From Sipunculus nudus (lineage: Eukaryota; Annelida; Sipuncula; Golfingiida; Sipunculidae): a DNA stretch of 64,000 nucleotides. The stretch spans positions 11,584,576-11,648,575 of the forward strand of contig CM049309.1 of the NCBI GenBank assembly GCA_026874595.1. The letters run 5' to 3'. Below the pieces are notes generated by a model. The model was not told where the DNA came from. It was given only the letters and a program-made list of their open reading frames with translations, and did no database searches. This document shows positions 1-31,283 of the stretch, piece after piece; position 1 is the first letter of the stretch, and the number at the start of each line of letters is the position of its first letter. The translations under genes were made by a program, and so were the position numbers.

Positions 1-460
1 TAAAATGTTTCATTAGGCCTAGCGATTCAATTACTGTTTTATGCCGGCTCGATAGACAAGATGAATCATCTGCCCATCAAATTCCTGGCAAGAACTGGCC
101 TAGCCAGTGGGCCATTAGGTTAAAATCATCCAAGTTAACAAGGTATGTTCTACTGTACACATGCAGTTTGTCAAAAATAAACTCCCACAAACCATTTCGT
201 TCCTCCTTTGTGTCATCTCACACCAATGTTGTACAGGATTATTAGAAGTCAGACCACATATGTGACACAGGGAAACCTGGTTTATTACATCAAACCTGTT
301 ACATAATGACAATATTTTTACCATGTGTGAAAAAATACCAGTGGCCTCAATTTGTCTTCAAGGATGGGGGGAATGACTCGCAGGGTGGGGAGATGACTTG
401 CAAGGGGGGGGGGGGGATGACAGGCATGGAGGGTAGTCAAAATTGGGATAAAACAGACAT

Positions 461-514
<54 letters not shown>

Positions 515-1580
515 TATTGTCTGTGTAACACATATCAAATATATATATCAATTAAGTATAAGGTTAAAAAAAGGGATATGTTTATTCTAAACCATTTAGA
601 TATAAATATTTCATAGTAAACTCATAAATGGAACCAAAGTCTAAAATTCTATTTGTTTATCTATTTCATTTGAAATATATAAATATTATATTCTGAATAG
701 TGGGGGGGGGGGGGAATAATTACATTGACCACCCCCCTTGCCAAAAAGTGTATATACCCCCCCCCCTATATTGACGCCCCTGAATTAAAATAACATAAGA
801 CCCAGGAAAATGTCTTCCCTCTTTACAGAGAACAGATGGCTCCAAAAACGTATCTTTGACCGACCGTAACATCTCAAACTCCCAAGAGTATTCTGTACGT
901 TTTATGAATAACTCGTTTTCATATTCTACTATTTTCTTGGTTACTATCCCATTCCAAGGGACTTATCTGGAAATTTCATGAATGACTGCCACTCTAGTAC
1001 ATACGATTCTAGGTTATATTTTCGAAAGATGGATAACACGCAGACATGAAGCCATGCTCCGGTAAATCGCTCTGCTCGGTAAGCTTTGGATGCGTGCCCA
1101 TAGTATGTGCATTGATATTTTGACACTATCATATATTCTTCCAAAGAACAGTAGTTGAATGCGGCCTTTAAATGCCTCTAACCTTTGGATACCGACTAAA
1201 CTCAACGCAATATCTTGGCGGACCCGAGAATGCAAGAGCTGTGACGTTTTAAACAATACCGTTGCATGTGCTCTAGAGAGAGTTGTTCATGCAGAGTTAG
1301 GCAACACCAAAGTTCTGCTCCAAATAGGATTCTTGTTAGAACCATTGTCTTATATATTTGACTGTTAAATTGTAAAGGGATTCAACCATAAGGACGTACA
1401 TCTGATCCAGCTAAAGATAAGAAAGTTCCCTTGCCTTTTCTACATGCCTCTGAGGTACATTCAGTGGAGGACATTCTTGCAGGAAGTAATATGCCCAGGT
1501 ATTTGTGATTTTGAGTTTGTTTGATACAGTTCTGACCTAAATCCAAGCTGCGATTATAAAGCAAAACTGTTATATTTATT
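1..1580 (-). mobile_element. LINE (non-LTR retrotransposon) 3' remnant, copy 1
   Basis: Reverse-strand pieces in several frames read like the end of a non-LTR reverse-transcriptase protein: DLGQNCIKQTQNHKYLGI (about 1490-1550), LVGIQRLEAF.GRIQLLFFGR (about 1140-1200), FRKYNLESYVLEW...FPDKS (950-1020) and CHICGLTSNNPVQHW (220-280). Frames are broken by indels, and a MITE at 339-782 splits the element. The part below 115 has no frame and is probably 3' UTR. Confidence 0.65.
339..782. mobile_element. MITE-like element inserted in the LINE remnant
   Basis: The ends are imperfect terminal inverted repeats: CAGTGGCCTCAAT at 339-351 and ATTGACGCCCCTG at 770-782 (reverse complement CAGGGGCGTCAAT). 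The interior holds G runs, C runs and a TA repeat (464-509) and codes for nothing visible. LINE coding sequence lies on both sides. No clean target duplication is visible. Confidence 0.5.
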
Positions 1581-2659
1581 TTATCATCCCCAGCACATTA
1601 TGTTAGCGTTTTGTTTTTTTGGAAGAAGTATAAGCTATATTTTATATGTCATATGTAAATACATATTGAATTTTTTCCAAATTCACCTCGGGAAATGACG
1701 CTTTAAAAATCAGAGTTTAAACTATAGAATAAACCTGAAATATATGCCATATACTCAAAATAAATAAAAGTAAGCCTGATATATTTAATATCTGCTCCCG
1801 TTTGTTCTATATAGGTATATTGATCCAGCTCTAACACACAACATCCGCATACATGGTGACACAAATGCCATAGTATAGAACAAGTTGGTATGTCTTAAAA
1901 CATTGAGGTGTAGTTGTCAGAGAGATGGAATCATATTTGGCTGGATATATATTGATTTACTGAACGGTTCGGATAACCGTTTTTTATGGCAGATTAAATG
2001 TTCTAAGCTAGTTACTTCAATAAATCACTTCCAGGGTTTTTTTAAGAATAATGTCAGGTCAGTTGCAGAAGATGTTTAATGTGAAAGAGGGTGGATGTAT
2101 CTGTGAAAATTAAACTTTTACCATATGATTTGAAACGCCTCAGGTGAAAGACTAGTGTGTACATATAGATAAAGTCAATTTATATAACATTAGTCGATCG
2201 GCCTATTTGTAAAAATATAAACAATGAGAAAAGCAACAAGGTCTGAAAATAATCTTATCAGAGTAAATCCAGATATTAAATAACAGTTATTAAAAGTATA
2301 TATACATTTGCAATAATGTGTGTATCGTCTCGTGCTGTCTGTTTTTTTTTTTTCTGAACACTTTGAGAGGGTAAACAATACGTGTTGCGATATACATAAA
2401 TCGATACCCGATATGTATTGACGATACACTTCATTTTTCTTTGCCTACGATTTCTGATTATAAAAGCTCTATTATTTGGTCTATCATTGTCATGGAAGCA
2501 CGAAAAACTGTATATACATTCCTCGTCCATTCGATCATATGAAAATTCATTATATTATTTAAGTCTTGAAAGGCCTGTAAAGAAATAAAAGGCAGATTAA
2601 GCTTCATAAATAATTCCGATTACAGTTTAAGTTGGGGCTATATGACTTGTATCTATATT

Positions 2660-2776
2660 TGTGAGCTTTTTTGGTATTTCATCGATGCGCCAATACCACA
2701 CGCAAAGCGTATTGGTAACCGTATTGATGTGGCGTAACGATATGTATCGAAATATCGATATATTGATACAGCCCTA
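2660..2776. mobile_element. Possible DNA-transposon end
   Basis: The segment ends in 'tatcgatatattgatacagccct', whose reverse complement starts AGGGCTGTATC, a string typical of hAT-type ends. It is preceded by nested TATCGATA-type palindromes. A degenerate partner may lie near 2384-2430. The same sequence recurs at about 30130-30250. Confidence 0.3.
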
Positions 2777-3291
2777 CTGAACATGAAAGTTTCCCAGCGA
2801 ATTCCTTCTCAATTTCTCGTATATCCTTTATATATTGTTAAAATTCTCTTCATCAGTCGGCAGAGTCCACGCATGTCAGTTAACTTTGACAAGATTGTAA
2901 CCCCAAAGTCTGACAATGCGCATGCGCAACAACTCGGAGACAAGGAGAAGAATCATGACAGAACCACTCTAGAAAGCATGAAAATCATGATATGCAAAGT
3001 TGTGTAATGTTTAAAACTTGTGTAATTAAATTATTCGATAACAACCAGTTTAAACACAACAATTGAAAAAAAAACAGGAAGACGAAAGGCAGCATGCTGG
3101 TTAAGGGCGAGCACAAGATTTTGAAGGCCGATTTACCAAAAATTCAAAATTCACGAGTATTCTGCGTGCACTACTCAGTGTGCCCAGTGTATCATTTGTT
3201 TATAAATTTAACCTCAATTATGTGATACTTTCGTTCCTGCAACCTCTATTCGTGATGACATTCCTCTGAACTGTGTAAACAAAGAAAAGTT

Positions 3292-3293
<2 letters not shown>

Positions 3294-3349
<56 letters not shown>
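3294..3349. repeat. Compound (CT)n(AT)n microsatellite
   Basis: A CT run passes directly into an AT run. The paralogous locus at 30752-30822 has a shorter CT part and a longer AT part. Confidence 0.9.
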
Positions 3350-5053
3350 ATACATATATATATAATACAATATGTGTTTTATCAAGAGCCATATCTAGTT
3401 AATCAATAAATTGTTTATTGATATCTAACGTTATCAATTGAGTACAAGCTAGAGCTTTTCGTTACAAACTGGTTGATGTTCCTGTTACTTACTGAAGCTT
3501 GTCACTGAACCCTGTATCACTATATGAAAATACTGCGGTAAAATAAAATCAAACTGTATTTCATAATATGTGTCTCCATATACGCCAGCGGCAAGGTTCG
3601 ATATGTTTGAAATTCACTGAACATCCATTCATTCGATGTTATACATAGCGAAAGCAGAACATAAAATTCAATTTCTCAATTTTCCATCTTTCTAGATTCG
3701 TGGATTTGTATAGCAGTGCATACCTCAACCCTATCCAATATATAACTCTTCATAAGGACAATATATTTTCCATACAACTTCCCTATCCACCAAATCCATT
3801 ATGTGACAAATACACCGTGCAGTCACTTATAATGCTCAATGTCATTTATCAATTTGTATGGAACAACTAAATTTACGTTGTTTCACGAAAATTGTTATAT
3901 AATATCGTCATCATTTAGTTCAAGTGATACATTTATTTATATAAATTAGTATAAACAATAATTCTCATAGTCCAAGTATGTTCATGGTTGCCTTTGTGAG
4001 GTTTATCCCTTTTTAGATTACGAAAATTTCTAGTGAATGTACTGTAGCCTGCATGCAAGCAACCTCTGATATATATATGTCGAATTATCTAAGGCGAGTC
4101 AAATTTTAAAATCTTTTAATTGCTGAGAGTACATTTTACTGCAGGCTCTGCACACAAAAGCTCCTCCCCATCCGTCGTTTATGCATATATTATATGTATT
4201 CAAACTGGTTTTCCTTATAATGAGTGTCTATATGTACCAAATATATGCCGATATACGTCTTAAACATAATTTTTCTAAGATTCCGTATCGTCAAGTTTCC
4301 ATTATACTAACAAAAAGAACAGGGTGGCATCTCGACACGAGAGACTTCGTCATATGTTTTTAATGAATATTATGAAATTAATACATTACACCCAATAATG
4401 AATAAATTGTGCCAGTGCCTGTGATTTAACATTCTCAACAAATAAGGTCGTATCGTCTCAAACATGCAATATTAATTCTAATATCTATTACTGTTTTATT
4501 ATTGTTATCCTTTACCTTATTGCAAACATTCTTTTGTTGAGATCAATTAAAACAGCCATTAGAGCAACCATTCTTGTTTCTCATTCTGATTGAAAAGATA
4601 CTGGAAAATTCATTGTTGTGAAATGACCGTTGTTCATTAGTTTGCTGTTAAAACTTATACTTTTCATTTAGCATCCTGTCAAGCACTTACCCTGTTCAAT
4701 AGTTAAAATTAAATAAAACTCAACTGTCTAGCTTTCCCAACCTGAATTTATTATTTGTCTTCATTAAATTGAAAGAAAATATATTTTGTGTAAAGTTTAT
4801 ATGCATATTTGTTTTTTTTTTTATAATTTAAATATTTCTTGTTATTAGATCCGGACATGATTTTGCTAAAAATGTATGTCCTACCAGTATGTATTCTCAA
4901 AATATACCTTACGTCAAAACAACTTTTTAACTGTTGTTCAGTATAAATGTTTTTTTGCTATTTATCAATAACTAAATTTTTATCAATAAAAAAAATTCTG
5001 CATGACACACAATACTTAAGCTTCAAATGACAGAATCTTTATATCATTAACTC

Positions 5054-5059
5054 TTTATT
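5054..5059 (-). promoter_or_regulatory. Polyadenylation signal of gene A
   Basis: AATAAA on the minus strand, about 205 bp after the gene A stop codon. The same hexamer lies at the equivalent place behind genes C and D, including in copy 3, where the surrounding sequence is otherwise diverged. Confidence 0.5.
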
Positions 5060-5263
5060 GCTCTATTAGTGGTTCGTGGAGGATTATGTATCTCCCAGAA
5101 CATGCTGAATCCGCTTTGTCCTCGATAAAGCACTTGCTTTCATGTGCAGTCTCCATGGATACATTTCAGTGGTCCGGAAAAAAAAACAAAAGGCGTCAAT
5201 AGGCCGACGACACCACCACCACCAACACCACCATGTAATCAGCCAAGGGCCACTGGCGCCAGC

Positions 5264-7992
5264 TTAGATAACACCCTCGACGGTTTCGCCTGCTGAAGCC
5301 GAGTGACTTTTCCTGTCCAGGTCTGCCCAATGAATAATGGGGCGTTCAGAGCCTGGACGCCAAGGGAGATGCAGATCGTAGATTAGGAAGTCGTACATAT
5401 ACATTTCATGTGGTGCCACGTAGTGAAGTGATGCTGTTCCAGTACTCAATGCATATGTCTTGGAATACTGGAATGAAGGAATTTCCCGTGTATAATGTCG
5501 AACTTTTTTTTTTATTTTACATGGTAATGGCATGACCGGGTAGTAATAGTCCTATAGATTAGTGGAATGTTTGCTCAGCAACCTAAAAAGAAGAGTATAA
5601 CACTCAGAAACGTTGCACCCTGATAGACCTAATGTCAGGATTTCTCATAAAAAATCAAATGTAGTCTTCTAGGTCTTAAATTTGCATTTAAGGATTAGTC
5701 AATAAACTTACCCGACTATTAAATATGTTTCTGTAGTTTAGCTCCGGGTGATGTCGTTTCATCCAGCTCATTGGATTGAATTCATGGAATATCCTGCGTC
5801 CCCTGACGTCCAGAGCGTGTAAACGCGTGATGTTTAATGCCGTCATGCAGCGTCCAATAGCTACATCTTCTGCACCGTTCTTGGGACATTGGGGGTTGGA
5901 AGCGCCAAGAGTAGCTAATCTCCGCGCCGCCTCGCGGCTAAGCAGGTAACTAAATCATACAGTTCTTATATAAATAATCCATTATAATTAACAAAAGATA
6001 TTTTAAATGATTGTGTGTATTCCATATTGATTTAAGTAATTAAGACATAGACAGTGTAAAAAGCCACCAGTCACTATTTTAAACGACATTCAAGAAAAGG
6101 CGTTTCCTTTCTAGAGTTACCAACTCCATATTTAACCACAATAAACAATAAAAATGTATTTTATTCCATTTTTGATAATACGTGTAAAATATTCTTCATT
6201 CTGTTAAGAATTTTGATCGTGCAGCAAAGTGAACCTGTTCATATATGATGGAGTTAGAGTCCTTATTCTTCTTACATGAATATATATGTATTTTATGGTT
6301 CGTAAGCGTATCAAGGTCGAAACACCCTGAAGTAACGGTAACGGCATTTTTATCATCGTTGGGGAATATAGAGAACTTCAATGGTATTTTGTATGCATGT
6401 CTTAGAAATTTACCTCATGTCTACGTTATACATTTTAATTAAGGACATGTAAATTAAATGCAGTTTTACTGGATCTTTAACAGAAAATCTGCACGTTGCT
6501 ATCGGTAAAAAGCGCTCCGCGGCTGATCACAGAAACTGTTGGGCCACATTTTGTAAGAAAATTTTGTTAGAAATGTAGGGAAGCATATTTTTCCGCTTTG
6601 CCGCTAACGCCAGTATGTATCTTACCCTGCCCCGCCGCTGTGATAGAAATAATCACGATTAGCATTCAAAAGTCTTTGTCCGATGTAGTATGCCTTTCCA
6701 GGGTCCAGGTCGGAGACGGCTAATCTCAGATTATCCACGATAACGTAGGTATCGTCGTCACACTTCATGTACCAATCAACAATCTCTCTATATTTGTCGT
6801 AGGACCAACGGAACAGGGCGTAGCTCTTGTTAACTAGCGTCTTCCTGTCGTCAGGTATAGACAGAGGCACCCCTCGCTCCAAATTATAATGCGAGCCTTT
6901 ATTCTTAGTGTAGAAAAAATGAGGCTGGTCGCATCTCTTTGCCCAGGTGTTACTTACAGCCTTTGTTTTACTCTCAAAGTTGACTGTTCTTGTCAGTATA
7001 CCACACATAATTACAGGGGGTTTCCTTTTACCTGAAGACAAAATAAAAAAAATCATATTTAGTGTTAAGCAATATTGTTCTTCATTTTAAATCAATAATT
7101 TAATGGCAAAGATGTTTATTTGTGTAACAGCCCTTCTTATGGCAACATAAAAATCAGAATATTTGTCAATTTAGGAAAAACATGTCAGACAATTTAGTAC
7201 CTTGCACAATGTAATAGTTATATTTTTGATTTACAACCTTGGCTTTCTTTCAGGCATTTTACTTTTTTTCTATCACGCAGTTCAGATAATGCATGTGTAT
7301 ATTTATTTGTCACTGATTTTTTATCAAATAGATATAATTTGAATAGCTGTACAATTTCTCATTTAAGATAGCACATAATGGACAGGGGTTCCTTCTTTCG
7401 TTACCATAAATTATTGACCTGATTCTGGAGATGAGAAATAGCACGACTATTTCATCTCAAACTTTGATTTGATGCCATGGTAAGGCGGTTCCAGGTTATT
7501 GGAAAGGGACAGGTGTGTCATTTAAAAGGGGGAATCAGTATTCTAAAACTTCCCAACCATAGCGGGTTTAGCCTGTTAAATTCGGAAAGATCGAACAGGG
7601 GTTTAAACCCCTAGACACCCCAGTAGCAAGCATTTACGACGTTTAAGACACAAAACGAAAATTCAGTTTTACATATTATTCCTCCAAGTCTCTAGAAATT
7701 TAACGAAATAACAACTCGAAGTTACAGGAGCAACAGATATCTGGTGTTGTTCACCAGTTTCTAACTTTCTTTTGGATATATAGCTCACAGATTTTTTTCA
7801 GTCATCAATATACTTAATCTAAACGTACATCACGTAGAGTGTGTTAAATTGTCTTATCTACTAAGAATAGTTACCTGTGTCATTGTCAACCATCTGCAAC
7901 AGGCCTGGTCTGAGATGAGTAGCAAGAAATACAATTAAAACAATTATAACGAGACCTTGAACAAATATGTAAATCATCCGAGAAGATGCCAT
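5264..7992 (-). CDS. Gene A: C1GALT1-like beta-1,3-galactosyltransferase, four exons
   Basis: Exons on the minus strand: 7875-7992, 6626-7031, 5712-5949 and 5264-5467; all junctions are GT/AG and phases agree (1, 2, 0), giving 321 residues. The start is the ATG in an AAAATGG context, followed by a short tail and a hydrophobic anchor at about residues 7-25 (IYIFVQGLVIIVLIVFLAT). Residues from about 45 match GT31 core 1 galactosyltransferases: VIMCGILT, NTWAKRCDQP, the CDDDTYV motif (DDD about 131-133) that binds UDP-sugar and metal, HSGGAG then YLLSREAARRL, and EDVAIGRCM. The family transfers galactose from UDP-Gal to GalNAc-Ser/Thr in the Golgi; the exact substrate here is inferred. It differs from genes C and D by lacking 24 bp (8 codons) at the start of its second exon and by a 4-bp insertion near the stop that changes and shortens the C-terminus. 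No internal stop was seen, so it is probably functional. Confidence 0.87.
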
Positions 7993-9664
7993 TTTAGATG
8001 ATGTGGCCCTTTAGGTAAATCAGAAGTTTCAATAATCCTTTGGATACTGCCAGAGCCGCGGGCGATCTGTTAGGGGGGTTAGAGGACGAAACTGTTACGG
8101 TCTAGAACGATTCATTTGCAATACAATCCCGTTCAATTTCAGCTTGCAGTCATTAGTTATTATATCTGCCCCTTCGGGGACTCCTTAGCCGCTACCGTAC
8201 AAAAGGTATCAGTCTGAAAAAAAATCAAAAGACACTTTCCGGGAGACCTGCAGGCTCCCTGATAACAATACCAGACAGCAGCTGTTCGTATTGAGATAGA
8301 TGCACACAGCGAAATTTATAATTTCCTGAATTCACATAGCATGGAGCCGATCAGTTTAAAATCCTGATTGATCCTTTCTAATATGGTCCATATCCTTACA
8401 CAATGTCACTATAAACTGGCATTTGTTAAGAACTTTATCAACAAATGAAATATAAGAAGATATAAATTAGAAAGAGACATACGGGTCAAAACACAAATTT
8501 CCGTTCAGGTCTAAATCATTATATGTGTTATTGGAAAATTGTCAACCGCCACGATTCTGTGAGATTAGATATACATAATCATAATTATTAACAGCTTATT
8601 TTCAATAAATGTAAAGACTTACTCGAATTTATGAAGCCGTGAGTGAACAAATGAATGGGCTTAAATCATTAGTATGCTTACACAACTCCTTTTACCGTAT
8701 CAGGTGATACTAAGCAAAATATTCACGTTTTCCTGCGTGAGTGCTGTAGTAACTGTAGGCTACTCTCATCGACATACTTATAAAAATCAGGTGATACTAA
8801 GCAAAATATTCACGTTTTCCTGCGTGAGTGCTGTAGTAACTGTAGGCTACTCTCATCGACATACTTATAAAAAGAAAAGTACGTATATTCAAAAATGGTA
8901 TTGTTGATTACATTTATTGTCATATCATATGAATGTGTTTATACATTTGAAGATTTATTATAACCATTCAATGCGCTTTGTTTTCTCGGCCGGTGATCGA
9001 CGGGCCGCCTTGCGGTAGAAAGAAGGGGATCACAAGTTTTTTTTTTTCAGTCAGCCTCTTACTTAGAAGCCCAGTGGTATCAGCATGAAGGTAGCTGTAC
9101 ATTAACTGAACCAAAAAAAAAATAACTTAACGGGAAAATGTAGGGGCCAAGAACCAACAGATCTCTTGTCATGTGACTTCTTGCAAATCAACAGGACAGG
9201 AACTTTACAGATAGTCGATCTTTTGTCCATTTGCGGTTGAAAAATAGTTTGTTTGCCTGCACAAATGTACGCTCATTTAGCAGTGGGTAAACACTGCTGC
9301 AGTCGTCCCAGGTCATCATTTTTGTTTTAACCGCTGTTTTGTTTGGCAAGGTTTTCTGGGCATTACCAAGAGCAAAGACTTGTTATCACACCAAAGAGTG
9401 TTATTCTTGGCCCTAAAAAATGAGAAGGGACGTATGGGTGTAAGAAGGCCACTACGAGCAGGTTTCGCATGCATAAAATAAGGGTTGGATGTCCAATGCG
9501 ATACCACGCTCTTATCTTTTTTAACCCTCAATCGACCAATCTATTTTTCGACTAAAATTACCGAGGTGGTCATTTTAGACCTCATTACATTTTTCACAGA
9601 AAAAGCATATTATATCGTTCCCTTTGTGATGATCCTACTTATGCTTCTTCCATTCTTTATAATT
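7993..9664. other. Region upstream of gene A
   Basis: 5' flank of gene A with no further exon recognised. A TATAAAT string on the minus strand near 8315-8321 is conserved upstream of gene C and altered upstream of gene D. An 87-bp tandem duplication occupies 8701-8874. The open frames near 9316-9844 have stop differences between copies and no known motif, so I do not call them genes. Confidence 0.5.
8701..8874. repeat. 87-bp direct tandem duplication
   Basis: Two essentially perfect units beginning CAGGTGATACTAAGC start at 8701 and 8788. Copies 2 (from about 36326) and 3 (from about 50207) have only one unit, so the duplication arose in copy 1. Confidence 0.9.
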
Positions 9665-10936
9665 GACATTCTAAAGTGTTCTAATGACCGTTTATTATCG
9701 TTTTCCTTCATTTATAAGCAAAAAGGAATACAAAAGGCCCTAACACAGCTGTACGAATTGTGTAAAAACACAATTTCCTTTATTAAGACTATCATTCCCT
9801 GTTTTCTTCCTGAAAAACTAACTGTCTTTGTTGAAAAGACTTAATAGTTGGAAATAATAGATGGGGCTTGTTCGATTGAATTAAATATAACAGTTTCCTA
9901 ATATTATATGACCGCCAACATATGTATGAACAAGGTACTTCAAAGTCTCCTTTAAAGGGGTAACGTGTTCCTCCATCACGGCTCAGTCCTATTTGATATG
10001 ACTGACTGTTTTAGTTAGGATGCAGTCTGGTAAAACTATTTGCATCTTTAACGCTACCAACTGACCATCTACACAGAAATCAGAACCCGGGAAATAGGTT
10101 TATAGGGTTTAGGTTAATAGGTACCCTTTTCCATAAACATTGTTTACATATCTGAAAGGCTGTATGTTTGCCATAGGTTCCTGGTTTGCTATGGTAACTT
10201 GGCTATCAATCCGCGTGTACCCCAGGATATATCGGGACATTCTGGGTATTCTTGTCAGTGTAAGAAAGAAAACGGGTCATCCATCCGTTTTAAGCCAGAA
10301 AGGATGTTGTGGTTCATGATACATTTAACAATTCATATCTTATTAATAATTGCTTAGATCTTAAAAAAGAATAAACTGGTTTCAATGCTTATATTTAGTT
10401 CTTATAGTGATTGTCATTCAAGTCCATAAACTTTGCCTGACAACTCTGTTATTTTCTAGATCAATCAACCTAATCAAGTCTTCTGTCGCTGGTATAACAT
10501 AGAAAATACTGACTGTACCTCGTCAAATCATATTTAATTTATAAGCTCCGTGAACTCCTGAGGATGACCCAATAACTTATTCTTAAGACTTCTAAAGCAT
10601 TGAAATTTGCCAAGCCTAAATCTCTCACACTGATGGTTCAGTGGGAGATTGTGCAATATGTGGGGAAAAAACCCATGGCAAATTACATCAAAATCAGAGT
10701 CTATAAGGTTAAAGGAAACGCATCTCTTTCCAAGGGTCATAAATGACTCCATATAAGTTTTCAGAATATTTTCCACATATATAGCCCAATCCCTGTAAGA
10801 AATTATGATAAATTAAAGGACGACTAAATTGACGTATTCATGGTTGGAAACATTTTATTTTTTATTAAAAATATCAATACGGCACATATAAATACATAGC
10901 TCGGGTCATAAATGACCCCACTTGGTCGTTTTTGGA

Positions 10937-10937
<1 letters not shown>

Positions 10938-10977
<40 letters not shown>
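10938..10977. repeat. (AT)n microsatellite
   Basis: About 20 AT units; the copy 3 counterpart at 52340-52408 has about 35 units. Confidence 0.9.
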
Positions 10978-10980
<3 letters not shown>

Positions 10981-11512
10981 CAGGACTTCAATTAACATAC
11001 ATTTAACAATTTCAGGGCCTCGCACTATAGGGCCGCATTAATGAGAAATGCACCGTACAGTGGTCTAGATGTTAGAATTATTGAGTATTTGACAGAAAAT
11101 TTTGGGCTATCAGTAAACAAATACGAGACTCTACGACGTGATTGACACTACTAAAAGATGTGCAGATAGCTTTTTTATCAAATCTCCCACAAACAGTGGT
11201 GAAAAAAAATGTATTGCCGGTGTGTTGTGCTTGGCCGTATGTTTCCATTTCTGAAGCTTGATAATTGGGTATTGTAACGCGTTTTCTCTCAGTTTTGGGC
11301 ATGTTTCTGTGCGTTGGTCGTCCTGTTGTATCACAGAGGCTTGATAAACTATATTTTTAGTCAGGCAATTTAGCTGCAACTTAGCAGTGTTGTTTATTCG
11401 GCAGTTACAGTTATTCTGTTTACTTTAATAATTTATGTTTATTAAATAGACCTGGAATTATGTACGCTGATAAGTTTTGGTCCGTGTTTACCATCCTTTA
11501 CTTAGTGTCACA

Positions 11513-11539
11513 GTCTCTCTCTCTCTCTCTCTTTCTCTT

Positions 11540-11586
<47 letters not shown>
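11513..11586. repeat. Compound (CT)n(AT)n microsatellite
   Basis: The CT run is interrupted twice by CTTT before turning into an AT run. The counterpart at 52943-53019 has a pure CT run and a longer AT run. Confidence 0.9.
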
Positions 11587-11590
<4 letters not shown>

Positions 11591-11924
11591 TTATGATGAC
11601 AATTCGGTCACTGTTAGGTGAAACGCAAGGGGATTAATTCATGCCAAAAAAATATGTCATAAGAAAAACAATGTCTCGAGATTAATTTCTTTCTATAACA
11701 TTTACAATACAAGCTGCTTGATAAAGAAAAACATTAATATGCTTAGTTCTTTCCCGGTGCTTTTCGATACTGTCTCCTCTTGTTCCTATTCTTTTGGTCA
11801 GGCTTAGCAACAATAAAATCCCTATATTTTCAAGTTTACGAATATTTGTATACCATTTCACACAGATCATGGTCACTTTAAGATATTATGTGTAAACAGC
11901 AAAGTAATGTTATATTTCCCATTT

Positions 11925-12760
11925 AGATTAACCTACCTTAAGGGCTTTAAAGTGATGACGATAAGATGTCAAATTATGTTTCCTCACGGAGAACGCGCAC
12001 TGTGACCCACCACAACATGGTTGTTCTTAAATACAACCAAGGCACAGGTTTGTGGTACCTACAGTTTAATTGTTAAACATAAATCTAGCAAATGTGTAAA
12101 AGGGAGTACTTGGATATGATCTAAATCATACAAGTTTTGATAAGGGAAGTAAACGAACCATGATGCGCTGTTGTCTGTGTACTAGCTGAGCAGGGAGCCC
12201 AGTGTTTGGACATGAGTTTATGTGTAGTTTGATTCTGCAGGCGTGACATTAGCAATGAAAACATGACTTAGTAGGCATTTTTATTAGCCTACTTTGCTTC
12301 GGAATTCAAGACATATGGGGGAATGCATTGCAGTGGTCTTCCATCATGTTGTATTGATATCGTGGTAAAAAATTCATAATCTCAACATAAGGCTACGATA
12401 AATAAAATAACAGAACAGGATACATATGAACTCACAACTCAAACTGAAAATCTGTTTCCAAGTATCATTTCCAGTATCGCGCACAAGTTGACACTCGTCC
12501 AGTTACCCGTGCGGGTTATGCTTGTATTCATTCGATCAGAGGGATTTACCAATATGCTTAATTAAAAAAAAAGGAATTTTTGCTCGCTCATGGTTGGTAA
12601 TGTTATGAAGTATATTCAAAGAGATAATGATTGGTCTGGTTAATGTCAAAGTCAAACGTACTTGTAAGCCTTGAGGCGTTGTCATAAATAGTACAAACAT
12701 TTGCATCCTGACAGAGCCTTAATATAAGCGCGTTCCTCGTTGACTATATGCGAAAACACT
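11925..12760. repeat. Dispersed repeat family R1, copy 1a
   Basis: This sequence recurs outside the block duplication. 11940-12250 (cgataagatgtca, acaggtttgtgg, gagcagggagccc, gattctgcagg) matches 17640-17960. 12320-12680 (gcagtggtcttccatca, ctcacaactcaaactgaa, attggtctggttaatgtca) matches 22480-23280. No coding frame or clear ends are visible; the class is unknown. Confidence 0.55.
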
Positions 12761-13459
12761 CTGACAGCTGGTAAGTTGGTCGTAGACTCTCTAGTGTCAT
12801 AGGGCCGAAAGGAGGTTAATGTGACTTTATTCTTGATGTCAGGAGGATCGTTATACATTTGGCACTAAGTATATTTTGCTTTGAACCTAGTGTATTTGCT
12901 GATTGTTTGTTTGTAACTAATATAACTCTAAAAACTATGAACAGATTTCGTTTAATTTAGGGTCGGACTAAGGGAAAATTCCATGTAATTCTTTAGTTAA
13001 TTTGAATCTGGTACAATAATTTGACTTCCAATTGTGAAATATGATTATAACTTTATCCCGGCCAAAGGCCAGAGCAATTCACTGGTATCAGGGTTCTTTT
13101 TCCTAGCAGGAAAAAATCTTTCCCCCCCCCCAAAAAAAATATATAAATATATATTGTGGTGAGGATGCCCCCCCCCCCCCCCCGTGCCCGATCTTCAAGC
13201 TGTAAAAAAACCTCTCCTTCGTGTCACCATCAACCATAATGCTAGAGCTCTAATGATGCGCTGCCCTTCCCGTACCATCTTAACCTTAAAAATCTAAGTG
13301 TTAACATATGATCAATGAAATGTTTATATGGGGATAAACTATCCCTATTGAACAACTCTGCCCCATACAAATCTAGAGATCATGAACGTTTTTGCGAAAA
13401 TAGGCTAAGAATGTCACGACATTTATTACATTTACATATATTGCAATGGGGATAATACA

Positions 13460-13570
13460 TACCCAGGGCCCATAGGTGCAGTAGCTGCCGGCCCTGGTCC
13501 CGGTTATGTAATCCGAAATGAAATCGATTTCTGTAGATATAAAGGTAACATGGCTTCCTATGTGTACTTT
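13460..13570 (+). mobile_element. Fragment of SINE family S1 (3' part)
   Basis: Shares 'cccagggccca...gtgcag' and the later 'tccgaaa...ttctg.agat' block, in the same order and spacing, with the 3' half of the S1 SINE at 20349-20728. The tRNA-like head is missing. Equivalent fragments lie at about 39320-39420 and 54880-54990. Confidence 0.45.
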
Positions 13571-13850
13571 CATTATATGTTTCAAATTGCAGCAGAACCT
13601 CATTGGAAAATGAGTTGCCCATTTGAAATAATTTATAATAAATAAAAAGTAGTAGATACACAAGCTGATGCATCCGTCGTATAGGAGTTATATGAAGTTT
13701 TTTAACACCAATTACAAAGTGAAAAAAAAGCAATGTGAAATCACATTATTTCGTTTGAAAATGGTTTTCAGTAGCTGGCCTTAACTTTATAACATCGCCT
13801 TTGATACATTGTCATTTTAATGACACAAAAGGCAAATACATCTAAAGCTA

Positions 13851-13898
13851 ACCATCTGTAGTAAGCGGAACAGCACCATCTGTAGTAAGCGGAACAGC
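13851..13898. repeat. 24-bp tandem duplication
   Basis: Two units of ACCATCTGTAGTAAGCGGAA plus CAGC. Copy 3 also has two (55274-55321, second unit with two changes), while copy 2 has a single diverged unit near 39708. Confidence 0.85.
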
Positions 13899-14887
13899 AT
13901 GGATTCAGTAAACTTATGTCAGGCAGTCATTAAGGTACAGGTTTAAGGATTACCTGCCTTTGTTCGCCTGACCTTGTTTATATGAACAGGTTTTAACGTG
14001 ACTTTTATGAAAATCACAGACTTATCTCACTCATTTGAGCTTAACATGCCTGCTGTTTGGATGATCGTATACGCGTAACATGCATTCTCGTAACAAACAT
14101 ACTCATAATTAACATAAATACTCGTTACACGTATGCTTTTTTCTCGCAAACCTCAACTAAAGGTTTATATCATTGTAACGCAATCTGCTGTTCTAGTTTT
14201 CGATTTAATTATTAAGTATTATTTTCTTCAATTTATAAGCAGCGCGAACAAGTGCAAAATCCTCTAACAAAATAGACATACAGATAGATACTCGTCATGG
14301 AATCTGGCTCAGTTTATTGTACAGAAATTAATAAGTCATTTTCACTTAAAATTTACAAAAATCTGTATTCACATATCTGTTTCTTCTTATTATACTAAGG
14401 GATTTGTATTCGATAATAAATGATCAGTACGATCATAGTATTTAAAAAAGGTTTTCAGTCTGGAAAGAATGGTATTTTTACTATAATTTTCCTCTTTAAT
14501 TTTTTTGTCAAGTTTTTATCAGGTTTTCCCGCCGAGTTTTGTTTTATCGAAAGAAGCAAGCTTTCATCAAGCAGTACGAAAACCTGACAGAATGAAACAG
14601 GAACAGAGAAAAATACATAGAGAGCCGAACAGTAGGGATCCTAATTACATGTATTGCTAATATTATTCACGATTTTTAGTGGCTGTATCCGCATGTAATC
14701 CCTATTGTACTATACCGGTTTACTATAGCCGGAAAGAATATCGTTTTGTAAATCCTTATTCAGTATTTTAATACAATATGACTTTGCCGTCCGCACTTGG
14801 TTCGTAATTCAATTTACTGCTGCAAACATTACCTCGTGTAAAGAGTGTCAACCTTCATTTGCCAACGCTGACTGGTTGTACGAAACT

Positions 14888-15135
14888 GATCTTGAGCAGA
14901 CTACAAAGCATGCATTATAGGGGCCTTGACAGCTGAGAGGTAAAACGCCCATCTCACTCCGCTGGCGACCCGGGTTGCTGCCATGAGAGCGGGTTGTAGT
15001 TGCCCGTCCAAGGTCGGTGGTTCTCTCCAAGTTCTCCGGCTTCCTCCACTCCTCTCAAAACGATCTTCAATTCTATCAGAATCTTCTATTTTCGCCTTAA
15101 ATATGTAACTGTTTACCAACTCAATCTGTCACACT
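14888..15135 (+). mobile_element. SINE (family S2), present only in copy 1
   Basis: This 248-bp insertion interrupts sequence that is continuous in copy 3 ('cgaaactttgtcg' near 56284). It has a degenerate tRNA-like head (cagctgagaggtaaaacg, then gcgacccgggttgctgccat) and a conserved block with 'gttctctccaag' and 'ttctccggcttcctccac', which resembles the shared central domain of molluscan tRNA SINEs. Only ACT is duplicated at the ends. Confidence 0.6.
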
Positions 15136-17298
15136 TTGTCGTACCTGAGGGAGCTAGTACGGGCCGGAATTTCCGGAAACCTGTGACTGGCTGGAGCGCC
15201 GAATTCACTTTCAGTCAGTCAGTCACAAAAGGATTATGCATGTGCCAGAGTTTTCAGAAATGTGTGGTTAAGCGTCTGTCTAAATATAACTGAGGCGCTC
15301 GTTCAGAGGACTCCAGGCGTTTTTATATATAATTTAGTAACCTGCTCAGGCGGAGACGGCGCAGAGGTCAGTCAATCTGGTTTCTTCGAAATCCGACACG
15401 ACATTTCAAACTCGACAGATAAAGCTCAAGAGTTTAATAACAGTTTAGGTAAAATAATGGTCTTCATACGTGTTCAGTTCCAATGATTCTACAGACTTTT
15501 TTGGGGGTAAGAAACGAGATACACACTCGAGGCCTCTACAGGAAGACTTTGAGACATAACAACTTTAAGTTTTCCTTTCGACAATTCGGGACCTGAATAT
15601 TGCTCATCAATCATCGGCAAGGGATAACATCATGTGTAAGCCACGCATGTAATTTAAAGGAATAATATGTAACACAAATGTAATAAAAAATACTACATCA
15701 GCATTTATTTCAATGATTTTAAGTAGTAAGGAAGGTTTTGTGATTATTATGATAAACTAATACACGAGCTCTTTTCATGAGATAAAATGAAATAAATTTA
15801 TATTTATTTAAATAAATAATAACATCCTTAGTACTATTCTTTTTGCCTGGGGTCACAGGTATGAGGAACATTTCGAACAAGATAACTATACAAGATCTCC
15901 TTAGGATTCTCATGTGCAGGTATTCATGGCCGGTGGGGGGAGTGCTTCCTAACGAGAGTTAAACAAACTGATGTGCAAACTAAGTACCTCAGAGACTACA
16001 GGACTATGCAACCATGTACCTGGAAACAAAAGTACGTTAAATACATCGCAGCCTTCAACTAGCCCTAGCTCCCGTGATCTTACTACGCTACGCTGTGCGA
16101 GAGCCCTACAAGATGATTTGAGGAAATTGGAGACATTCCACATGACATTTAAATTCTTATATTTTGTCTGAAAATGTCGTGTTCGTTATGAAAAAAAGAT
16201 ATTCTTATCAAATACGCATATAACATACCACTTAGACAGTGTTTGTCCACTTTAAATTTTGATTAGAAGAATATATATTGTCCTAATAAACGGTGATACG
16301 ATGGAACGATGTCTGCTCTACCCCAGCCACGGCTGGCCGGCAGCCGCCTGTGTAACCAATGGTAACGGGAAGTGGTGGCTCAGGGAGCAAAGGTTACGCA
16401 GTTCATTAAATTCTTAGACAGTTTCAAGCGCCAGGGTTACAAAGTTTTAAAAGTGAGTCTTGTAAAATACTATATCTTCCTTAGATTACGTAAAGTTTCC
16501 TTGTCATAAACGCAATATTTGATTTTACACGTTTTTTTCCCCGACAAGGGTTTTAAGTTCTCCAGTTTACTCTGAAGCTTTTACAGCTGGATACGGCTGC
16601 ATTTAAAGCAGTTACCTTTAACAAGAGGGAATACCACAAACCATGCATCGTCAGCGGAACAAAATGGCACGAAACCAATCATTTCTTCTATTATCGTTCG
16701 TATTATCCGCTCATTATTTTTTACTTGAATACCATGTTAGATTCATTCCAGATAAGAGAGATGATGCTGTAGGTTCTCCTACTGGATACACATCATAGTT
16801 GCAGATAAATGGCGCTGTAATAGTCCCTCAAAGATCGTCTCAAAATATGGAAAATGACCCTCCTTAATTCACACTCGGTGTCCTTACACGTGCATATCTA
16901 ATTAAGCAGTAACCACAGAGAAGTTCCGGGACAAAGGTCGAGTGGGATCAATTTCAATTAAAGCATACATTTATCACGGACCAGGATGCATTTATGATTA
17001 AAATAATAATCCCATTTATCACACTATGTTTGTATACATTGATAATCTGTTTTCATGTTACGGATATATTTATGATGACGAATAATCTGACAGGTCCAAA
17101 AGTTGCATTGTTAGACATGACGTCATATGAAAAGATATCTTGAGATTATTTCCTTAATAATAAAATAATCCTTAGGTTTAAGACTTTTATAATCCTTCTT
17201 TACGTAAATCTCTTTCACGCAACTAATCAGTAATGTATCTTCAGCTTCCGAGTTAATGTAATGTTTAACTAAAATAATATTCTCCTGCGTTTCATTAA
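15136..17298. other. Non-coding stretch with exon remnant
   Basis: Apart from the exon-4 remnant at 15338 and a sevenfold GTCA-like run near 15213, no gene or transposon was recognised. Its copy 3 counterpart is 56290-58466. Confidence 0.5.
15338..15367 (+). pseudogene. Decayed galactosyltransferase exon-4 remnant (copy 1)
   Basis: After a TTTAG acceptor-like string the sequence is homologous to the first ~30 nt of exon 4 of the galactosyltransferase genes (the YLLSREAARR segment). Relative to the copy 3 version it has lost one base and carries a TAA at the first codon, so it cannot code. Recognisable similarity ends after about 30 nt. Confidence 0.5.
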
Positions 17299-17409
17299 CA
17301 GAGAAGCGGATCCGGGAAAGGGGGGGGGGGTCCAGGGTCCTCCCCCCCCCCCTCTTCCAGCCACGTCAATTTGGACCCCTCATTTTCTTAAATCCTGGAT
17401 CCGCCCCTG
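17299..17409. mobile_element. Short MITE with inverted termini (copy 1)
   Basis: A 111-bp element with inverted ends: CAGAGAAGCGGATCCGGGA on the left and TCCTGGATCCGCCCCTG on the right (reverse complement CAGGGGCGGATCCAGGA). Inside, a G run and a C run can pair around 'tccagggtcc'. No clean target duplication is visible. Confidence 0.5.
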
Positions 17410-17629
17410 TATCATTTCCCGATAATTGTACAATTTCATAAGCAACGTGCACAAATTTACGTTGAAAACAAGGAAATGTCAAAAGGGAATTATGTCTCCT
17501 TAAAATCATGCTTGAAATATTAATATAGCTCAAGCGGTTTCAATGTATGTTACTCTCTGAGATGTCGATAGGAGACAATGTACTGAGTGACTCACCAAAT
17601 ATTTGTTCTTACGGCTCTATCGGCTCCAG

Positions 17630-17970
17630 CTTAGGTTAACGTACATGAGACCTTTACCCTGATATCACGATAAGATATGTCAGATACAGTCCCTTAGAGA
17701 GCACTCGCACGGAAACACACCTCAACAAATACGGTGCTCTGAACGACGGTATACAGGTTTGTGGAAATCAGGTACGTACTAATTACTTTTTTGTACATGC
17801 ATGAATTTAAATAATTGCACGTGTACATATACATATAAACGAATTGAACCAGAGTAATTGAATTATCACGTGCTGTTCTGTGTGTACTGAGCAGGGAGCC
17901 CTGTGGCTTGATTCTGCAGGTGTGATCATTTGTGACGTCAGCAGCCTCATTTTGCATTAAGCAGGAAGTA
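17630..17970. repeat. Dispersed repeat family R1, copy 1b
   Basis: Diverged match to 11925-12250 within the same block: 'gatatcacgataagat', then 'cacggaaacacacctcaac', 'acaggtttgtgg' and 'gagcagggagccctgtg...gattctgcaggtgtga' in the same order. Its copy 3 counterpart is about 58790-59130. Confidence 0.5.
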
Positions 17971-18509
17971 TAACGTTTTATGTATAAGTTGCTTGATTTT
18001 TCCGTTAACAAATTATCTCTAAGGACCTGTACGGATTTTTTTTAAATTGGAGGGTAATTAATACTAAGGGAAATTCTGTTTATTATTTTACTTAATCTTG
18101 ATTACCATATTATGTTTACAGAGATGCTTTGTGTTTATCCCAACCCATATATAAAATAAAAAAAGTCTATTCACTCAATATATTTTTAGAGACAAGTAAC
18201 GTTAGTTTCCGTATATGTTTGCAATTTAAGTCTGTCTCCACCAGATACCTGGTCAATACAAAAAGATTCTCCTTAATCAATAAGACTTCCTAATTTTTAT
18301 TAAGAAGTATGATTTTTTTTTTACTTTTACGATGTATTCGTTTATATTAACTTACCAGCGTAGAACTATGACATGCACGAGTAAAAGACGGAACCCCTGA
18401 ACTAAAAGTAAATGACATACCAATAGATAGGGTCTCAGATTTCAACTTTCTTGGTAAATAAACTGAACGAACATAAGAAATGACAAACACACACAAACAA
18501 AGTTATTAT
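17971..18509. other. Unassigned non-coding stretch
   Basis: AT-rich, conserved with 59131-59670 in copy 3; no gene, RNA or element recognised. Confidence 0.5.
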
Positions 18510-19160
18510 GATAATAATAATAATCTTTATTTATTAAGCGCAAATTCCTTTGCATAAAAGATCAAATGCGCTGTACAATTTAAAAAAGTAGATGTAAGTA
18601 AAATAAACAGTCACTAGACTAAAATAATTTGGATGTTGATGCTTATAGTATGTTGAGTCAAAAGTAATAATTCCTAAACATGTGAGTTTTCAAGTGACTG
18701 GTAAAAGGTTTTGGATCACCGAGTCTTGGATTAGCAGGTAGTTCATTCCAGATTCCTGGGGCAGATTCACTCAAACTACGAGCACCATAATTTTGAGTTA
18801 TGTATTTTGGTTCTACAAGGAGACCAGTGCCACTTGAGCGCAGTGTCAAAGGTTGAGAACAGGGAGACAACATTTCTTTGATATACTCTGGAGCTTTGCA
18901 GACTAGATATGCCAACTTATATTCAATCCGTGCCTAGGTGGGGAGCCAGTGCAGAGTGTTGAGAATTGGTGTGGTTTGTTCCCAACGATTTGTCTTGAGG
19001 ATTACTAATACGGACAGCGAGATTCTGGACATGCTGAAGTTTTTGCAGATGGTATAAAGGCATGTTGGTGAGTCGGCCATTACCATAGTCCGGGCGGGAT
19101 GTGACAAGGGAGTGGACCAGCTGTGCCGTAGAATCCTGTGACAGGTACTTCCTGATTTTA
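18510..19160 (-). mobile_element. LINE 3' end with reverse-transcriptase C-terminus
   Basis: On the minus strand, 18658-18915 encodes AYLVCKAPEYIKEMLSP...RSLSESAPGIWNELPANPR..PFTSHLKTHMF, the characteristic C-terminal end of CR1/jockey-group reverse transcriptases. Upstream, 18916-19160 continues with PDYGNG...LYHLQKLQHVQNLAVRI, broken by a frameshift and stops. Downstream lie 'gcgcatttgatc' and 'gcgctta' strings and an ATT-repeat tail (18513-18533). The element is truncated. Confidence 0.75.
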
Positions 19161-20348
19161 CCTATGTTACAAAATAAATATCAAAATATGTTGGAATCCT
19201 TAATTATCTACCTGTTCCGCTACTAAACATTTTATATGATACACTTGTTCTATCACACTTAAATTATGGAATTCTTGTATTGGGCTTTTATATTAATAGA
19301 TAAGAAAAACTTTAAATAAAAGCCATAAGAATAATTACAAATAGCAAATACGAAGCCCAATTTTTTCTATTAAAAATCTAAAACACAAATGACATTTTCA
19401 GACTAAATATAATACAATTTTACTATAAATACTATCATGAAGCCCTACTACCATTTCTACAAACATTTAATTTTGCAACAAGGACAATGACACACGAACA
19501 TGACACAAGATAAAAAAGATTCCCTCGTTACAAATAAAACCAGAACTAAGACAACTGTCTGAGAAACAACACCAAAAGTCATAAATGAGACCGACCAAAT
19601 TATTATTGACAAAATCTTCACTTGTAGTCTTCAAGGATTGATTTGCTACACTTAACATTTTATAAATTCATATAAAGACAAATGCCTTCAGACAAACTGT
19701 TACATCTGCAACAAAAATTAGTTTAAGCCAAAATAAAATAAAACCCATAAAAATAGTTATCAAACTTATTTCAATATCTCAAGTAAATCTTTCCAATTTC
19801 TTTCCAATTTCCTCATTCAATCAAATAATCTCAGTTTTATAAAATGCTCCCTATTATGTACAGTTTCTCAATTTGTTACAGGTAACTTTTGTGTCAGCGG
19901 ATCAAAATTCTTAACAATAGTCCGGACATATTTAAAAAAGATATGTTGAATATATTTTCGTGGATACATTACTTTTATGTCGAATGAAATCTCTAAATCT
20001 CTCTCTCTCTCGTAAAATATTACCAGTTAATCCCATACACCAGGAAAATTAAATAGTCTGAGTGACCTATGCATCTTTACACAGCTTAATGAGAAATTAG
20101 AAATGTGTTCCGTATTTTTTTGTCTGAAATTCTTCCCAGTCTCCTTATATGTCTATTGTTTTATCAACATCGCGTATGAATCATGTATGAAACATGGAAA
20201 CGGTATACATATATAATCACCCTCTTAACATATAGATAAATATTTCACATGGATTCATTCGGTAGAATTGCAGAGATTCGACAACAGTCATGTACCATTT
20301 ATATTTCGGAAAACGGAATAAGCCTGGGGGAAAGAGAAATTAAATTTA
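19161..20348. other. Unassigned non-coding stretch
   Basis: AT-rich with no supported gene. Bases 18548-19669 are missing from copy 3 (see findings). Confidence 0.5.
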
Positions 20349-20728
20349 CCAGCTTCTGTGGCTCAGGGGTAGAGCACAGAACTCAAAGGCGGGAGATCGT
20401 GAGTTTGAATCTCAGACGAGGCTGTGAAATTTTTCATGGTCGGCCCCATCCAAGGTTTAGCGCTCTGTAGGCTTAATGGGAAGGTCGTACCCAACCGCCA
20501 AGTTGCACTTACAAACGAGTTCCTTGATGGTATTACCAAGCAATGAGGTCGAGTATACACACCCAGGGCCCACTTGTGCAGAAGTCGCTATAAGCCTGGT
20601 AAACGCAAGGATCTAAAACGAGAGGAAGCGGTGATACTGCCCTGTCACGTAGTCCGAAACCAGAATGGAATTCTGAAGATGTACATATACTTAGTTAAGC
20701 CAGCCTTGAAAAATGGAGGCGGTAAACT
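20349..20728 (+). mobile_element. tRNA-derived SINE, family S1 (copy 1)
   Basis: The head has a pol III A box (TGGCTCAGGGGTAGAGC) and a B box (GTGAGTTTGAATCTC) 30-odd bases later, as in a tRNA, followed by a tRNA-unrelated body with 'cagggcccacttgtgcag'. The cloverleaf is incomplete, so it is not a tRNA gene. Further copies are at 60391-60770 and, reversed, 24591-24970. Confidence 0.7.
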
Positions 20729-21308
20729 CCACACACACACAAAAATAAAATACTTGTTATAAGGCATCGATTAATTACAGCGTTAGAAGAATTCTGAACT
20801 CACACTGGCTCAACACAGAACCCCTTCTGTACAGAACAACTTTGCTATGCCCCTTGTGCACGTTTTGGGTCTCAAGTGCTTTAGAGTTTGCATACTGACG
20901 TTGACAAATCGAGATATGCGTGCCTTTTGGCCTTTTATGAATGTAGTGTCCAATTAATCATTTTGATAAATACATTTATAACAGTCATATATATATATAA
21001 GGCAACATAATCAGATGTATAGATCATGCGTGTAATTTACTATGCCAAAATTATACTGTGCTATACACAATGAAATATGTTATAACATTACAATTAATTT
21101 GCACCGTCCTTTTATACCGCAAAGTATGAAATTACACGAGAGGTGTTAAATCGTGTCGGTAGAAAATAAAAAGGATTACAGATTAAAGAAATCTCAGGTT
21201 TAATGAAATATTTTTATTCACGTTTCTAAATAGAATGTTCGAGAAGTAGGGAGAGTTAAATCCGTTTAGAATGATTCCGTTTGCCAAAGTTCAATTTCAA
21301 TGGGATTG

Positions 21309-21317: not shown

Positions 21318-21375
21318 CCCTATGTAATCGTTACATATTACGATATACAGTATTAATTTCCTGACAGGAGTGACA

Positions 21376-27199: not shown

Positions 27200-27230
<31 letters not shown>

Positions 27231-28134: not shown

Positions 28135-29065
28135 TAAAATGTTTCATTAGGCCTAGCGATTCAATTACTGTTTTATGCCGGCTCGATAGACAAGATAAAT
28201 CATCTGCCCATCCGAAATTCCTGGCAAGAGCTGGCCTAGCCAGTGGGCTATTAGGTTAATATCTTCCAGGTTAACAAGGTATGTGCTACTCTACATATCC
28301 AGTTTGTCAAAAATAAAATCCCACAAACTATTTCGTTCATCCTTTGTCTCATCTCACACCAATGTTGTACAGGATTATTAGAAGTCAGACCACATATGTG
28401 ACACAGGGAAACCCGGTTTATTACATCAAACTTGTTATATAATGACAATATTTTTACCATGTATGAAAAAACCAGTGGCGTCAATTTATCTTCAAGGGTG
28501 GAGGGAATGACTCGCACACGCGGACATGAAGCCATACTCCGGTAAATCGCTCTGCTCGGTAAGCTTTGGACGCGTGCCCATAGTATGTGCATTGATATTT
28601 TGTCACTATCATATTCATCCAAAGAACAGTAGTTGAATGCGGCCTATAAATGCCTCTAACCTTGGGATACTGACTAAACTCAACGCAATATCTGGGCGGA
28701 CCAGAGAATGCAAGAGCTGTGACGTTTTAACACAATACCGTTGCATGCGCTCTAGAGAGAGTTGTTCATGTAGAGTTAGGCAACACCAAAGTTCTGCTCC
28801 ATATAGGATTCTTGTTAGAACCATTGTCTTATATATTTGACTGTTAAATTGTTAAGGGATTCAACCATAAGGACGTACATCTGATCCAGCTAAAGATAAG
28901 AAAGTTCCCTTGCCTTTTCTACATGCCTCTGAGGTACATTCAGTGGAGGACATTCTTGCAGGAAGTAATATGCCCAGGTATCTGTGATTTTGAGTTTGTT
29001 TGATACAGTTATGACCTAAATCCAAGCTAAGATTATAAAGCAAAACTGTTATATTTATTTTATCA
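28135..29065 (-). mobile_element. LINE 3' remnant, copy 2
   Basis: Same element as at 1-1580. Reverse-strand pieces include RILYGAELWCCLTLHEQLSLERMQ (about 28750-28820), SIPRLEAFIGRIQLLFFG, KISMHILWARVQSLPSRAIYR and SLCHICGLTSNN. Only the first ~50 bp of the MITE remain (from CAGTGGCG at 28473); the rest, together with about 250 bp of LINE coding sequence, is deleted near 28517. Confidence 0.65.
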
Positions 29066-30752: not shown

Positions 30753-30825
<73 letters not shown>

Positions 30826-31208: not shown

Positions 31209-31218
31209 ATATATATAT

Positions 31219-31280
<62 letters not shown>
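31209..31280. repeat. Expanded (AT)n microsatellite
   Basis: Copy 1 has only a few TA units at the matching place (about 3761); here a long TA run plus 'ctcgaagag' was added. Confidence 0.85.

Positions 31281-31283
<3 letters not shown>

Follow-up and report, generated by a model that had tools for sequence, protein, structure and literature searches.

How can one copy of a tandemly repeated gene come to carry the left flank of one sister copy and the right flank of another? The question is raised by a stretch of 64,000 nucleotides of the Sipunculus nudus genome (hereafter the window; assembly GCA_026874595.1, contig CM049309.1, positions 11,584,576 to 11,648,575 of the forward strand), which contains three direct repeats (copy 1, 1-20,995; copy 2, 28,135-39,975; copy 3, 46,014-61,037), each carrying a gene similar to C1GALT1. 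We find that copy 1 is a recombinant whose flanks come from two different paralogues. A prediction made earlier from the sequence alone had described copy 1 as such a mosaic, left like copy 2 and right like copy 3; this description holds for both flanks, whereas the middle 3.4 kb of copy 1 belongs to no pair.

Flanks of copy 1 drawn from two paralogues

The three copies were aligned over 10,987 columns, and the 7,684 gap-free sites were segmented using the Bayesian information criterion. Divergence along the three pairs is clearly uneven; the even divergence that would have spoken against the earlier prediction did not occur. At 4,600-5,106 (copy 1 coordinates), copy 1 pairs with copy 2, and copy 3 (46,014-46,573) is private at 18.8% of 496 sites. 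The next segment, 5,107-5,237, is private to copy 1 at 26.6% of sites (34 of 128), copies 2 and 3 being identical at 128 of 128. A star-like segment follows (5,238-8,678), in which copies 1 and 2 each show 1.3% private changes and copy 3 shows 0.9%, mutual identity being about 97.5%. To its right it is copy 2 that stands apart, being private at 6.5% of 872 sites (8,679-9,666), then at 40.8% (9,667-11,512, where copy 2 is without most of the stretch and only 304 sites are alignable) and finally at 14.3% of 2,328 sites (11,513-14,105, corresponding to 37,503-39,954 in copy 2), where copy 1 pairs with copy 3 and each shows less than 1%. The final segment (14,106-14,824) comprises 124 sites only and was left uninterpreted. 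The divergence of copy 3 at 46.01-46.56 kb and of copy 2 at 37.6-39.97 kb, both pointed out in the original prediction, is evident in these segments, and copy 1 does follow copy 3 rightward, being of copy 3 type from 8,679 to 20,995. The original prediction let its similarity to copy 2 reach as far as about 9.1 kb, which is too far: copy 1 is copy 2-like only to 5,106, beyond which come a tract private to copy 1 and the star-like core.

The sites at which copy 1 agrees with copy 2 only (160) or with copy 3 only (625) are placed oppositely along the alignment (maximum chi-square of 413, versus 19 as the highest value in 500 permutations), and the best single break for copy 1, at 5,814-5,943, leaves 99:5 such sites on its left and 61:620 on its right. 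The left flank differs from copy 2 by 3.16% substitutions (4,308 sites of positions 1-5000) and the right flank from copy 3 by 2.17% (9,879 sites from 9669 onward), with values of 0.4-5.4% per 500-site window. In addition, copy 1 has stretches of about 650, 250 and 1,120 bp, three in all, that are absent from the partner copy, so that the agreement is close without being almost base for base as had been claimed. Copy 1 is colinear with the left part of copy 2 followed by the right part of copy 3 over about 21 kb, at a mean divergence of 2-3%. Within the stretch duplicated between copies 2 and 3, its distance is about 1% to copy 2 at 4,600-5,106, on the left side, and about 1.5% to copy 3 at 11,513-14,105, on the right side, which indicates that copy 1 arose after the duplication. 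Outside the core, the flanks of copies 2 and 3 are about 10-23% apart in 250-column windows. We refer to the flanks shared with copy 1 as La (left, copy 2 type) and Ra (right, copy 3 type), and to their diverged counterparts as Lb (copy 3) and Rb (copy 2).

The pair formed by copies 2 and 3 looks like an old head-to-tail duplication of about 10 kb, because of its truncation pattern: homology of copy 2 to copy 1 ends at 39,975 (14,130 in copy 1), and homology of copy 3 to copy 1 begins at 46,014 (4,600 in copy 1). Between them, the segment 40,897-41,122 matches the left flank with 55.4 bits (copy 1) and 53.5 bits (copy 2), the best of 60 resampled controls each reaching 39.9 and 42.8 bits, respectively. 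This segment is probably a relic of Lb, which would place the old junction within 39975-40897, and the 4.9 kb left between it and 46,014 would then be inserted sequence. The spacer also contains a pair of overlapping stretches about 57% alike (43463-44543).

The copy 1-only stretch missing from copy 2 (383-1035, about 650 bp) holds a (TA)23 run. The two stretches missing from copy 3, 14888-15132 (about 250 bp) and 18548-19663 (about 1,120 bp), have shared ends of 3 bp and 6 bp, respectively, and could reflect either microhomology-mediated loss in copy 3 or insertion in copy 1. Frames within the longer one resemble a LINE fragment; the one frame that was tried had no Pfam match. In copy 2, an exact tandem repeat of period 42 spans 83 bases (31376-31458), and its counterpart in copy 1 is a single copy with the last base mismatched.

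The homogenised core and its edges

A gene-sized block common to the three copies is enclosed by a left boundary at about 5.1-5.3 kb and a right one at about 8.7-9.1 kb; it begins near the stop codon and extends about 0.7 kb beyond the start codon into upstream sequence. Noncoding core sequence (introns and at most 690 bp from the 5' side) differs by 2.67% between copies 1 and 2, 2.26% between copies 1 and 3, and 2.24% between copies 2 and 3. Coding differences amount to 3.9-4.6% at synonymous and 1.2-1.9% at nonsynonymous sites, counts that omit the last 25 aligned codons owing to a frame shift in copy 1. Introns and 5' sequence are thus as alike as exons, which excludes selection as the source of core identity; as the flanks are about 10-23% apart, exchange between copies is what homogenised the core. 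The pattern is that expected of gene conversion, namely an island of homology with divergence outside it and similarity extending to coding and noncoding sequence. Copy 1 shows no preference inside this island: over 5,335-8,690 (3,351 sites), copies 1 and 2 agree against copy 3 at 33 sites, copies 1 and 3 at 45, and copies 2 and 3 at 40, and no significant switch was found within this interval (the best one was reached by 151 of 1,000 permutations).

The left edge of the core is abrupt, while on the right copy 2 grades away through the 872 sites at 6.5%. The right boundary is a departure of the copy 2 flank and not a demonstrated switch in copy 1. Left of the core, copy 1-private sites fall from 34 of 128 (5,107-5,237) to 5 of 89 (5,238-5,330) and then to 2 of 369, and copies 2 and 3 become identical precisely where divergence of the copy 3 flank stops and the copy 1-private tract starts. 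Within the window, the tract has no other donor, its only match besides itself and copies 2 and 3 being one of 27 bp, at chance level; conversion from the fourth gene described below, or from any other part of the window, is therefore rejected. The tract is best read as original La-type sequence, which would have been overwritten in copy 2 from copy 3. The switch in copy 1 would then lie at about 5.3 kb, and the conversion tract of copy 2 would cover about 32,694-36,303. The polarity of this overwriting is an inference.

Where the core of copy 1 ends on the right, there is an exact 87-bp tandem duplication. Both of its units have one and the same sequence, which differs from that of copy 2 and from that of copy 3; this excludes a chimeric join between a copy 2 piece and a copy 3 piece and identifies the repeat as a duplication private to copy 1 instead of a switch. 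It may result either from recent slippage or from an unmerged assembly overlap.

History of copy 1 and competing explanations

We propose that an old tandem duplication comprising a C1GALT1-like gene left copy 2 with La and the old Rb, and copy 3 with the old Lb and Ra. Non-allelic conversion, probably directed from copy 3 to copy 2, would later have homogenised the gene block of the pair, leaving the flanks distinct. Unequal crossing-over between a copy 2-type and a copy 3-type gene, with loss of the 14 kb between them, would then have generated the one-gene arrangement La-gene-Ra found in copy 1. The exchange point may lie inside the gene or at its 3' end, most likely near 5.3 kb. Finally, the hybrid one-gene block would have become the neighbour of the two-gene one, for which another unequal exchange, this time between a one-gene and a two-gene chromosome, is the most likely route. 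That copy 1 is a deletion-type recombinant, whichever the last step, is the reading we favour, with reasonable though far from full confidence. As for the joining step itself, we lean only slightly towards a real duplication.

Several observations weigh against this history. One is the position of copy 1. In crossing-over between two tandem genes, a hybrid flanked on its left as the left gene is, and on its right as the right gene is, represents the deletion product; it arises on another chromosome, where it replaces the pair. Copy 1 has this makeup, yet it neither replaces the pair nor lies between its parents, but is found upstream of an intact copy 2-copy 3 pair. One event is thus insufficient, and either a duplication or an assembly of two haplotypes is needed as an extra step; the originally predicted mechanism, non-allelic recombination, is partly supported. 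Moreover, the crossover is not mappable inside the core, and the direction of conversion between copies 2 and 3 is not fixed by any outgroup. The stretches of about 250 and 1,120 bp are missing in copy 3; if they were lost there, copy 1 does not descend from the present copy 3 itself. With respect to the Lb relic, the reversed-spacer control was clean for copy 1 (33.1 bits) but not for copy 2 (55.2 bits), a value behind which we suspect simple repeats. Lastly, the core shows weak patchiness. Neighbouring variable sites agree 54 times, versus 38.8 +/- 5.0 expected (4 of 2,000 permutations reach 54), and 40, 140 and 63 of 2,000 permutations contain agreeing runs as long as the longest ones observed. 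After label-blind merging of near neighbours, the clustering is reached by 61, 105 and 155 of 4,000 permutations; merging same-label neighbours only erased the clustering, but this procedure is biased against it, and we relied on the label-blind version. These results do no more than suggest patchwise exchange within the core.

Alternatively, copy 1 would be an allelic one-gene haplotype of the copy 2-copy 3 locus that the assembly left uncollapsed and placed in one sequence with it, and there would not be three tandem copies. We regard this as a serious possibility, falling a little short of an even chance. The whole block is colinear at an allelic level of mean divergence, and the contrast between one-gene and two-gene structures resembles that between haplotypes in phased corals, as far as the excerpt of PMC12314368 goes. 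Homology between copies 1 and 3 breaks off abruptly within a short run of TA at 20,995; from there it is 333 bp to where the fourth gene has its first exon-bearing frame, and a self-search revealed no match between what follows 20,995 and what follows 61,037. The exact 87-bp tandem in copy 1 also fits this explanation. According to the accessible part of PMC9516828, 7-24% of the false duplications in older assemblies, and 61-92% of those in newer ones, lay on one scaffold. On the other hand, a graph-based join would need a long repeat at the junction, and none was seen. There is also no gap between the copies (0 N bases in 64,000), which mildly favours a real duplication, although a wrongly filled gap is still conceivable. 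If the haplotype explanation were true, the recombination would be real, but the locus would represent a copy-number polymorphism.

Repeated gene conversion without any crossover, acting on three real genes in tandem whose old flanks differ, would explain why the common block coincides with the gene, why all pairs are equally close within it, and why pair agreement in the core is weakly patchy. Conversion of the core, however, cannot yield flanks that match two different copies at 2-3% over kilobases, past the duplicated stretch on both sides, and we consider this explanation unlikely. Still less probable is a hybrid that switches only once, near 9.1 kb, and derives from copy 2 on the left of that point. 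The original prediction had expected a single switch at 8-10 kb, and copy 2 does depart from copies 1 and 3 at 8.7-9.1 kb; yet when the alignment and recombination test were run, the best break fell at 5.8-5.9 kb, no switch in the core was significant, copy 1 was no nearer to copy 2 than to copy 3 there, and it left copy 2 at 5,107. That copy 1 is the unduplicated ancestor, with Lb and Rb merely fast-evolving after duplication, agrees with its one-gene layout, continuous through both flanks, but is hardly credible, as it needs 14-19% private change in Lb and Rb versus 0.2-0.9% in their sister flanks.

The deletion-type history could also be one instance of a more general behaviour. One-gene and two-gene forms of a locus in a C1GALT1-like array may interconvert and recombine, with unequal exchange and gene-sized conversion confined to the gene, which would act as its own recombination hotspot, so that entire genes and their promoter-near sequence stay homogeneous while flanks drift about 10-23% apart. 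We regard this generalisation as rather improbable.

Genes, other features and known systems

Coordinates of all features are given in Table 1. The genes of copies 1 to 3 have four exons each and share their start codon as well as all three donor and all three acceptor sites; compared with the other two, the gene of copy 1 lacks 24 bp of exon 2, in frame, and its last residues are altered by an insertion of 4 bp. A fourth, diverged C1GALT1-like gene of this cluster lies between copies 1 and 2 in the opposite orientation, and the protein of its main exon is about 59-64% identical to those of the three copies.

Table 1. Coordinates in the window of the three copies, their segments and the C1GALT1-like genes
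Feature	Position	Strand	Remarks
Left flank La, copy 1	1..5106		copy 2 type; homologous to 28135-32693, extends past window edge
Copy 1-private tract	5107..5330		about 18% different from copy 2 and from copy 3
Homogenised core, copy 1	5238..8678		includes the gene and about 0.7 kb on its 5' side; equally near copies 2 and 3
Gene of copy 1, C1GALT1-like	5264..7992	-	exons 7992-7875, 7031-6626, 5949-5712, 5467-5264; 321 aa
Right flank Ra, copy 1	8679..20995		copy 3 type; homologous to 50185-61037
Exact 87-bp tandem duplication	8699..8873	+	2.0 copies; copy 1-private; right edge of core
Fourth, diverged C1GALT1-like gene	21328..27593	+	exon-bearing frames 21328-21585, 23501-23944, 25222-25701; match 27456-27593
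Left flank La, copy 2	28135..32693		
Homogenised core, copy 2	32694..36303		copy 3-like; proposed conversion tract
Gene of copy 2	32823..35603	-	exons 35603-35486, 34641-34212, 33528-33291, 33047-32823; 336 aa; open throughout
Right flank Rb, copy 2	36304..39975		old, diverged; private changes given in the text
Proposed relic of Lb	40897..41122		about 63% to 31502-31752; 64% to 3914-4135
Left flank Lb, copy 3	46014..46573		old, diverged; private changes given in the text
Homogenised core, copy 3	46574..50184		
Gene of copy 3	46703..49484	-	exons 49484-49367, 48522-48093, 47410-47173, 46927-46703; 336 aa; open throughout
Right flank Ra, copy 3	50185..61037		

Exon 2 of copy 1 matches the Pfam family Fringe (E 3e-11). 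In every PDB search, 7q4i (C1GalT1, or T-synthase) came first (among 4, 14, 4 and 4 matches), the whole copy 3 protein aligning with it over 241 residues at E 2.1e-36 (runner-up 2.1e-14, 4 matches) and exon 3 of copy 2 at E 6.2e-07 (14 matches). The motifs of the GT-A active site of C1GalT1 known as DxD, xED and C-His, whose residues, a His-Tyr pair among them, bind metal and UDP-Gal or act as base according to the excerpt of PMC9065035, were read by eye in copies 1 to 3 and in the frames of the fourth gene, where they take the form of CDDDTY, ED and HYV. The likeness to C1GalT1 consists of this 241-residue alignment together with DxD, xED and the metal-binding His. The difference lies in the CCSD motif, which is replaced by STGT in copies 1 to 3 and by STGA in the fourth gene. 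The available portion of PMC11005171 calls CCSD a hallmark, and describes a mollusc enzyme with TMSD at this place as active, at lower rates than another. On these similarities, the four gene products are filed as C1GALT1-like, putative glycosyltransferases.

The window has a G+C content of 36%, only three ATG-, GTG- or TTG-started frames of at least 150 codons, and genes with introns; its DNA is eukaryotic in character. Homology between copies 1 and 2 reaches base 1 of the window and runs off there. In the right flank of copy 3, the plus strand at 56500-56556 shows weak peptide similarity to exon 3 of the gene (E 0.018), possibly a relic or chance. A 95-codon open frame with a proline-rich start (63490-63774) has no Pfam match, and no structured RNA element was found in the window at Rfam gathering scores.

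The locus is a readable case of tandem families losing, regaining and homogenising copies, in which traces of duplication survive in the old flanks, of conversion in the gene block, and of unequal crossover in the one-gene form. It also provides a warning that gene counts at such loci vary with haplotype and assembly. In the titles and abstract openings covered, we found no locus of this three-copy kind named, which does not prove its absence from print. The processes involved are well known, and the locus is a clear but ordinary example of them, whose most surprising feature could be an assembly matter.

Haemoglobin Lepore is a deletion-type hybrid produced by unequal crossing-over (non-allelic homologous recombination, NAHR) between tandem paralogues. 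Copy 1 resembles hybrids of this type in that its left flank is that of the left-hand gene and its right flank that of the right-hand one, with the exchange inside a homologous gene block; unlike them, its block is homogenised, so that the breakpoint is unreadable in the gene, and the hybrid stands beside an intact two-gene form. In phased Acropora genomes, differences in copy number between haplotypes were described and NAHR was proposed, according to the part of PMC12314368 on which we draw. These local tandem families gain and lose copies as is suggested here, but they are other gene families, in much larger arrays, with breakpoints unresolved in that part of the source. The false heterotype duplications treated in the accessible text of PMC9516828 share with our locus two copies of a locus on a scaffold, an allelic level of divergence and an apparent gene gain, and differ in that no gap separates the blocks here. 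Finally, the Sp185/333 clusters of the purple sea urchin, as presented in the titles and abstract openings of PMC3091723 and PMC5103432, belong to a different gene family, but likewise combine clustered similar genes with microsatellites and segmental duplication and deletion.

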